From Synergistaceae bacterium (GTDB lineage Bacteria; Synergistota; Synergistia; Synergistales; Aminobacteriaceae), in NCBI GenBank assembly GCA_017443945.1, contig JAFSXS010000021.1:1-64000 (forward strand): a stretch of 64,000 nt of DNA. The letters are read 5' to 3'. Under the pieces are notes generated by a model that was not told where the DNA came from, ran no database searches, and was given only the letters and a program-made list of their open reading frames with translations. Shown here one piece after another: positions 27,325 to 29,369 of the stretch (position 1 is the stretch's first letter; each line of letters begins with the position of its first letter). A program made the position numbers and the translations under genes.

Positions 27325-28305
27325 TTAATTTACATAGAAATTTTTTAGATACTTCGCGAACATATAATCATTCATGTTACGAAATTCTTTAACGCGCTCG
27401 AAATTATCAAGTACGGCCGGGAGTCTGCGTTCATATTCAGCTGGTGTGCATTGCTGTAAAACTTTTTCGATATTTTCTGCGTCCTTGACTGAAATATTTA
27501 TTATTCCGTCGGGATTGAAGAATTTATGAATCTCTGTCGCACCCAAATAAACGGGTATAGTCTCGGCAGCAAAACAATTTGTAATTTTTTCCGTGAAGAA
27601 ATAAGGCGTTATGTCATTCTCGATTATGATTGAATATCTATATTTCTGTAAAGTTATTTCAGGCGGAACTAATGCCCCCCCGTCAAATGTCCCGTAAGCG
27701 TCTGCAAGCCCTTCATCCCTGCATTTGAACGCTAAAGCCTTCCGCAGTAAATGTAGTTCACATGATTTCTTGTAAGACGAGAGAATCGAAATATTTTTAT
27801 CCTTGTGCAAATAATTATCCCGTGAAAGTTTAACGCTCTTGTCAACTTCCCCGTACCAGTAATTAGCACCGAACGGCACAAGACGGGCATTATTTATCTT
27901 CTCAAGTATTTCACTGTCAAATGTGAAGATTAAATCAAATTCGTTCTCAAAATATTTTTTCTCGCGCAAATATTTCTTGTAAAATTCGGGCTTAATTGCA
28001 CGTGACTCTATTAACATCGCGAATCTTTTATCAGGACTGCCGACGAGATTAAATGCTTCATCATGGCTGTAAAAATGAGTCTTCAGCGCAAAATTATATC
28101 TGTCCCAGTAAATATATTGCGGCTCTCGTCCTGAATATGGGTCATGCGCCGACGAATCGTCAGACAGAAAAAATACATGCAATTTTTCACCGTGAGAGTT
28201 ATAAATTTCCGGCGGTTCGGAGCTCATCGGGTCTTTGCGGTTGTAATAAGGCGTGAAATATAAATATTTTCTCGTGAACTTCTCAATCTCTGACAATAAC
28301 GACAA
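27325..28305 (-). CDS. GT10-family (alpha-1,3-fucosyltransferase-like) glycosyltransferase, copy A
   Basis: A 326-residue cytoplasmic transferase. The GT10 signature is clear near residue 230: RYSIIIENDITPYFFTEKITN, then AETIPVYLGATEIHKFF. Such enzymes transfer fucose from GDP-fucose to a surface glycan; the true acceptor is unknown and other deoxysugars are possible. It is a close tandem paralogue of the next gene (long identical stretches such as the HKDKNISILSS and CTPAEYERRLPAVLDNFERVK regions). Start TTG behind GGAGG at the end of copy B. At the place where copy B has twelve G it carries only seven, so it is less prone to slip. Confidence 0.88.
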   Translation of the reverse strand: MSLLSEIEKFTRKYLYFTPYYNRKDPMSSEPPEIYNSHGEKLHVFFLSDDSSAHDPYSGREPQYIYWDRYNFALKTHFYSHDEAFNLVGSPDKRFAMLIESRAIKPEFYKKYLREKKYFENEFDLIFTFDSEILEKINNARLVPFGANYWYGEVDKSVKLSRDNYLHKDKNISILSSYKKSCELHLLRKALAFKCRDEGLADAYGTFDGGALVPPEITLQKYRYSIIIENDITPYFFTEKITNCFAAETIPVYLGATEIHKFFNPDGIINISVKDAENIEKVLQQCTPAEYERRLPAVLDNFERVKEFRNMNDYMFAKYLKNFYVN

Positions 28306-28311
28306 ATTAAT

Positions 28312-29352
28312 TTATTCCTCCTCAGCAAAATATTCTTTCAGACAGTTTATATATACCCAGTCCCATATTTGAGAATATTGCTTTACACGCTCGAAATTGT
28401 CAAGTACGGCCGGGAGTCTGCGTTCATATTCAGCTGGTGTGCATTGCTGTAAAACTTTTTCCAGATTGTCGAGATCGTTTATTGAAATAGTTATTATTCC
28501 GTCGGGATTGAAAAATTTATGAATTTCCGTCGCGCCCAAATAAATTGGTATAGTCTCGGCAGCAAAACAATTTGTAATTTTTTCCGTGAAGAAATACGGC
28601 GTTATATCGTTTTCGATTATGATCGAATATCTATATTTTTCCAGAGTTCGTTCCGGCTGAACGTATCCCCCCCCCCCCTCCGTAGAATCTGCAAATGTCC
28701 CGTAAGCATCCGCAAGTTTTTCATTTCTGCACTTGAACGCTAAAACCTTTCGCAGTCTATGCAGCTCGCAAAATTCTTTATCAGACGAGAGAATCGAAAT
28801 ATTTTTATCCTTGTGCAAATAATTATCCCGTAAAAGTTTAACGCTTTTATCAATCTTCCCATACCAGAAACAGGCGCAAAACGGTGCAAATTTTGCATTA
28901 TTTATACTGCTGAGGATGTCATAATCATAAGTAAATACAGCGTCAAAATTGTTCTCGAAATAACTTTTTTCGCGCAAGTATTCAGCGTAAATTTTCGGTG
29001 CTATAGCTTTTGACTCGATTAAGACTGCAAATTTTTTATCAGGACTGCCTACAGGTTTAAATGCAAGCTCCCTGCTATAAAAATGCGTCTTGAGGCCGTA
29101 ATTATATCTGTCCCATATAAAATAATGCGGGGACCTAGACCAAGATATATGATAAGGATCGTGCGCAAAATCACTGTCAGATATAAAGAAAACTTTCATT
29201 TTTTCTCCGCATGAATTATATATTTCCGGATAATTTGAATTTATGTCATGATACCTGTTATAAAACGGTGTGAACCCGATATATTTATAATGAGCTTCGT
29301 CGAGTATATGCAATAATTTTGCCTTAATTCTTGATTTGATTGACCTAAACAA
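28312..29352 (-). CDS. GT10-family glycosyltransferase, copy B, with poly-G tract (probably phase-variable)
   Basis: A 346-residue paralogue of copy A. It carries the same IENDITPYFFTEKI and IPIYLGATEI motifs. Its frame runs through a homopolymer of twelve G (28667-28678 on the plus strand as C), encoding four glycines around residues 225-228, just before the donor-binding signature. The present length keeps the gene in frame (ON); loss or gain of one G would remove the catalytic end. G-tract control of fucosyltransferases is established in Helicobacter pylori. Start TTG 29352 behind AAGGAGG. The two genes are 6 bp apart and probably cotranscribed. Confidence 0.88.
   Translation of the reverse strand: MFRSIKSRIKAKLLHILDEAHYKYIGFTPFYNRYHDINSNYPEIYNSCGEKMKVFFISDSDFAHDPYHISWSRSPHYFIWDRYNYGLKTHFYSRELAFKPVGSPDKKFAVLIESKAIAPKIYAEYLREKSYFENNFDAVFTYDYDILSSINNAKFAPFCACFWYGKIDKSVKLLRDNYLHKDKNISILSSDKEFCELHRLRKVLAFKCRNEKLADAYGTFADSTEGGGGYVQPERTLEKYRYSIIIENDITPYFFTEKITNCFAAETIPIYLGATEIHKFFNPDGIITISINDLDNLEKVLQQCTPAEYERRLPAVLDNFERVKQYSQIWDWVYINCLKEYFAEEE
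28667..28678. repeat. homopolymer of 12 C/G inside a glycosyltransferase gene
   Basis: The plus strand reads TAT, twelve C, then TCC. It is the longest G/C homopolymer in the window and lies in the coding sequence of GT10 copy B. The matching site in copy A (27675-27681) has seven C. Long G/C homopolymers mutate by slipped-strand mispairing. Confidence 0.9.
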
Positions 29353-29369
29353 ATTTTTACCTCCTTACA

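Follow-up and report, generated by a model that had tools for sequence, protein, structure and literature searches.

Copy B, one of two adjacent GT10-like glycosyltransferase genes in the 64-kb window (the whole stretch of DNA analysed here), is very probably translationally phase-variable through a tract of twelve G located within its reading frame. The first-pass annotation had read this gene as phase-variable; our analysis supports this reading and shows that it was too modest, given the genome-wide and cross-species evidence (about 40 tracts, random frames and purifying selection). Slipped-strand mispairing at replication would add or remove single Gs in the tract. The full enzyme would be made with 12 (or 9 or 15) Gs, while 10, 11, 13 or 14 Gs would lead to a stop about 10-20 codons past the tract, so that translation would end short of the donor-binding motif. 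Loss of the enzyme would then change the surface glycan, and the switch of copy B would be one of about 40 in the genome and part of a genus-wide 'phasome' rich in surface-polysaccharide genes.

The G12 tract and the GT10-like gene pair

The C12 run of the plus strand, which is G12 on the coding strand of copy B, occupies exactly the positions given in Table 1 and is the sole run of such length in the window, where the longest of the other G/C runs is 7. No run like it was obtained in 100 dinucleotide shuffles of the window. The tract is in frame within the open reading frame of copy B and encodes GlyGlyGlyGly, in the protein context ADSTE-GGGG-YVQPE, with YVQPERTLEKYRYSIIIENDITPYFFTEK as the continuation after GGGG. 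A twelve-G run inside an open gene and before the donor-binding motif, as well as seven G at the corresponding place of the neighbouring paralogue, had been described from the first reading of this DNA, and both were confirmed. Computation of the products at other tract lengths showed that the frame of copy B is kept at 9, 12 and 15 Gs and that the products are 239-245 aa at 10, 11, 13 and 14 Gs; the claim that slippage by one base would switch copy B off is borne out, a change of one G in either direction truncating the protein to this size. The focal G12 is a slippable homopolymer whose frame is broken by a one-base change, and its length is above chance, as are those of the tracts found genome-wide.

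Table 1. Positions in the window of the G12 tract, of the GT10-like gene pair and of associated features.
Feature	Positions	Strand	Evidence or remark
G12 tract (C12 on + strand), proposed slipped-strand switch	28667..28678	-	in frame at n=12
GT10-like glycosyltransferase copy B, 346 aa, ON in assembly	28312..29352	-	PF00852 27.2 bits; 2nzw E=1.2e-5; dN/dS behind tract 0.10-0.25
AGGAGG ribosome-binding site of copy B (TTG start)	29360..29365	-	sequence
GT10-like paralogue copy A, 326 aa	27325..28305	-	start 6 nt past copy B end
G7 run of copy A, site corresponding to G12 (C7 on + strand)	27675..27681	-	sequence
5' part of lineage-specific 15-nt insertion in copy B (codons A-D-S-T-E)	28679..28692	-	alignment; exact gap placement ambiguous

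Copies A and B both matched GT10 (PF00852) in Pfam, weakly but above the curated cut-off, which is 23.9 bits for this family and was exceeded by copy B with 27.2 bits. The best PDB match of copy B was the alpha-1,3-fucosyltransferase of H. pylori (2nzw, E=1.2e-5, 68 residues). Residues 234-301 of copy B align with solved fucosyltransferases, so the match covers the C-terminal region only, and the tract directly precedes the aligned stretch. The profile match includes the EN...TEK donor region, in which ENDITPYFFTEK of copy B aligns to ENTQGYGYVTEK of 2nzw. The label 'fucosyltransferase-like' given by the first-pass annotation can be kept for this weak match. Copy B is a putative fucosyltransferase, and its product is presumably a surface glycan.

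The dN/dS of copy B was 0.10-0.25 both before and behind the tract, which points to purifying selection on the two parts. Upstream of the tract, copy B is as distant in dS from copy A (1.45) as from the gene of genome G062 (1.48); it is therefore no fresh duplicate. Copies A and B have exact blocks of 49, 50 and 62 nt in common for an overall identity of about 70% (positions 27325-29352), which suggests patches of gene conversion between them. The tract was considered as a recombination boundary and rejected, since these exchange patches are found on both of its sides; some orthologue matches do start at the tract or at the upstream motif described below.

Comparison with copy A and with the orthologues showed that the tract was gained in copy B. 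The site reads F-D-G-G-x in copy A and in most orthologues and F-A-D-S-T-E-G-G-G-G in copy B, which has five additional codons, the last one abutting the tract. This 15-nt insertion is missing from copy A and from seven of the eight aligned orthologues, and the remaining one (G016, L032) carries a shorter insertion of another kind. In the nearest genes by sequence (G016 and G062), the site holds another short insertion (DTGEKGS) and no tract, and no G/C tract was found at the focal site in the gene copies from twelve sister species.

Poly-G tracts across the genome and the genus

The 2.4-Mb genome containing the window has 37 to 40 G/C runs of at least 9 nt, depending on the inclusion of runs at contig ends, when about one is expected from the first-order composition model of the window scaled to 2.4 Mb. 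Across the genus, with one genome compared per species, the number of such runs varied from 2 to 56 per genome; several genera elsewhere in the order had no such run. The tract lengths of the own genome peak at 12, and the coding strand carries the G in 27 of its 30 coding tracts. Over four species, 28 coding tracts were in frame (ON) and 52 were out of frame (OFF). The fraction in frame (35%) is about one third, as expected if the tract length drifts freely.

The genes carrying these tracts are mostly of the surface-glycan type, namely GT2, GT4, GT10, GT87, GT92, LicD, FkbM methyltransferase, CDP-alcohol transferase, CDP-glycerol glycerophosphotransferase, Caps_synth, pyruvyl transferase (PS_pyruv_trans), sugar-associated ATP-grasp (ATPgrasp_ST), ThDP enzymes, SDRs and AlgX/DHHW. 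A few are of other kinds, among them genes for a papain-lectin protein and for a hybrid histidine kinase. In two other species, a tract was also found in a GT10 gene encoding a FucT_N domain, ON with G11 in G032 (L162) and OFF with G14 in G031 (L101).

Genes with frame-breaking tracts had dN/dS values of 0.10-0.36 in both halves for the pairs with measurable dS; downstream of the tract, the values were 0.17 for L067/L247, 0.13 for L064/L227 and 0.10 for L092/L312. Since these genes are constrained behind the tract, in a part that cannot be translated from the assembled sequence, they must be translated at other times. Comparison of orthologous tracts showed that their position in the gene is kept across species while their length differs (G11 and G13 for L072 and L262, G11 and G12 for L068 and L143, G14 and G11 for L080 and L191). 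The excess of tracts, their random frame state, the purifying selection and the length differences between orthologues form the signature of reversible slipped-strand switching. This evidence of reversibility comes from the other tract genes and is only indirect for copy B, as the latter is ON; we infer that the length of its tract varies within the population.

The G12 could also be stable, or mis-sized in the assembly, and do no more than encode four glycines in a loop of copy B that tolerates them. The tract is indeed located in a loop of variable length (DGG in most orthologues) and is represented by a single consensus sequence, and in the assembly of a metagenome-assembled genome (MAG) the length of a 12-base homopolymer can be off by one. 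We nevertheless find this unlikely, because 12 consecutive G/C greatly exceed what chance would give, because twelve identical bases are needless for a glycine loop and because there are about 40 other tracts, two thirds of the coding ones being out of frame genus-wide and followed by sequence under purifying selection. Slippage of the transcription or translation machinery on the G run, by which expression would be set and OFF genes partly rescued with tract length being neutral, also predicts an in-frame fraction near one third and selection on out-of-frame genes. However, the documented cases of RNA polymerase slippage are mainly on A/T runs. Poly-G runs of the focal length are classic DNA contingency tracts (PMC6321876) and the orthologous tracts differ in length, so the DNA does change; slippage of this kind is quite improbable as the main explanation. 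That the out-of-frame genes are decaying pseudogenes and the tracts mutational debris would agree with the many genes split at the tract, but it is barely credible in view of the dN/dS of both halves where measurable, of the remaining frames being open over long stretches and of the tracts being kept at the same gene position in several species.

The tracts are not due to a loss of mismatch repair, since the own genome has a full-length MutS1 and nearly all members of the genus have a match above cut-off, including G026 with its 56 tracts. One run of the own genome (L082 1502, contig C52) is of a different type, being a run of 18 C inside a long, apparently non-coding palindrome of G and C runs. 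Three others (L075, L091 and L092, on contigs C32, C18 and C102), with lengths of G21, C15 and G15, are at or near contig ends, which suggests that the assembly breaks at these tracts, possibly because of mixed lengths.

A DNA motif upstream of the tracts

The sequences 5' of most poly-G tracts of the own genome (L061-L097) and of G026, G032, G031 and G062 have the DNA motif TaCGTAAaTTtac in common. An expectation-maximisation fit on 106 upstream sequences gave a log-likelihood of 278, and random sets drawn from these loci gave 70-91. With a model whose training set was G026, G032 and G031 alone, and at the 1% background threshold, a CTACGTAAATTtac-like motif was detected just upstream of 21 of the 36 own tracts, when 0.4 were expected, and it started 16-20 nt before the tract in all 21. 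The same model detected it at none of the 34 tracts of G025 and at none of 23 G9 runs present by chance in a GC-rich genus. It was not seen by eye at the short G6-7 runs of the tract loci. In coding tracts, the motif was found 13, 3 and 15 times in the three codon phases, the rare one being that which puts TAA in frame; the about equal use of the two TAA-avoiding frames makes the motif a DNA-level feature, and a protein-level constraint was rejected on these counts. The idea of an uptake sequence or a similar signal spread over the genome was also rejected, as the window held no excess of the motif relative to the reversed sequence.

The spacing of the motif is species-specific, and its exact form also varies with the species. 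The G of CGTAA is located at -12 to -14 in most own tracts, at -11 to -15 in G026 and at -16 to -19 in G032. Genome G004 has a variant motif, often GCAGAATTACTCTTGC-G12. Leave-one-out typing of the species by the flanks of the tracts was correct in 62% of cases, compared to a mean of 19% (maximum 28%) with shuffled labels and to 30% with more distant flanks. The tracts of G025 have no 5' motif and 33 of 34 are followed by TA. Several of them (e.g. L280, L289, L292, L293 and L296) lie between ttgaca and taaaat boxes, in apparent promoter spacers, which suggests that phase variation at such tracts may be transcriptional.

A search for the exact motif-plus-tract pattern in a collection of 84,980 genomes gave 52 matches, of which about 20 are in Synergistaceae/Synergistales, nearly all in MAGs from ruminants, and the others are scattered across unrelated taxa, as by chance. 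A phage origin was rejected, the two viral matches to motif and tract being in unrelated sequence and looking like chance. A reverse transcriptase is unlikely to act as tract writer, as no RVT_1 match was obtained in the own genome, G061 or G062, all of them rich in motif-tract pairs.

At the focal tract, the search for a CGTAAWTT-like motif 12-19 nt upstream gave a best score of only 0.6, which is reached by 42% of random 30-mers. The sequence GCAGATTCTACGGA at this site is only loosely like the motif and resembles degenerate members such as that of L092. The focal tract is a poly-G switch set apart from the motif-associated class, most but not all own switches carrying the motif. The lack of the motif found at most own tracts counts against the switching of copy B, as does the weakness of its GT10 match.

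Comparison of three orthologous pairs (L064/L227, L139/L152 and L092/L312) showed the same motif with a tract shifted toward the usual spacing of each species. A strict ruler between motif and tract was rejected, as L076/L297 shifts in the direction opposite to that of these three pairs. The own L064 1497 and the G032 L227 4344 are the same Fe-ADH gene with the same motif, both apparently out of frame, with G13 in one and, starting about 6 nt further downstream, G7 in the other. Their alignment is gapless, and the run therefore replaces other bases there. Cassette insertion at every site was rejected, as no single rule fits both this gapless pair and copy B, which shows an insertion. In G026, L103 1502 and L203 2046 are identical over about 42 bp except for G12 in one and G13 in the other, the similarity starting at the motif and the loci being otherwise diverged, as if motif and tract had been copied together between loci as a cassette.

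Rather than such copying, our preferred guess for the role of the motif, offered with some reserve, is a putative protein-binding site promoting the birth or the instability of tracts. It is conceivable, and we propose it tentatively, that a sequence-specific factor creates tracts or makes them hypermutable at a fixed distance from the motif, with the motif and the reach differing by species and the focal tract being an exception, either by loss of the motif or because it was never there. The literature searched by titles and abstracts, with most subscription journals outside, held no relevant description of a motif beside homopolymeric or poly-G tracts.

Comparison with known phase-variable systems

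The first-pass annotation had drawn a parallel with the G/C-tract control of Helicobacter fucosyltransferases in a distant gut anaerobe. Both terms of this parallel hold, as FucT switching by poly-C is known in H. pylori (PMC2583950) and the DNA studied here comes from a Synergistaceae genus of the ruminant gut. In H. pylori, the alpha-1,3-fucosyltransferase genes futA and futB exchange sequence between copies and have tracts of 12-14 C (PMC2583950). The present pair resembles them in being paired paralogues of the GT10 superfamily with signs of exchange between copies and in having a frame-setting homopolymer of about 12-14 bases. It differs from them by having G and not C on the coding strand, by the location of the tract in mid-gene, just before the donor motif, whereas theirs are near the 5' end, by its remote FucT homology and by its phylum (Synergistota instead of Campylobacterota).

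The set of tracts is like the poly-G phasome of Campylobacter, with tens of tracts per genome, mostly in open reading frames and with G on the coding strand (PMC6321876). Two other reports give 29 poly-G loci for strain NCTC11168 (PMC4965091) and place many loci of this phasome in surface-structure genes (PMC8437040). The tract lengths peak at 12 here and at 9-10 in Campylobacter (PMC6321876). Further differences are the presence of MutS1 here and the conserved 5' motif at fixed spacing by most tracts, the word 'motif' being absent from the PhasomeIt paper (PMC6321876). The simple sequence repeats of Helicobacter canadensis belong to a different phylum, and the abstract of their description reports no flanking motif. 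Within the literature searched, most subscription journals lying outside it, no report of phase variation was found for Synergistaceae and the rumen together, and the papers retrieved for Synergistetes and homopolymeric tracts were, by title and abstract, on other matters only.

Large-scale phase variation is best known from Campylobacter, Helicobacter and Neisseria. Our findings extend it to uncultured Synergistaceae of the rumen and provide dozens of natural loci at which switching could be read from metagenomes. The motif, with its fixed, species-specific spacing, makes it testable how contingency tracts arise at given sites and whether a dedicated protein sets their placement or their rate of change. 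If the putative motif-directed factor is real, the bacterium would in effect place its contingency tracts, most of which would then be more than accidents of slippage kept by selection.
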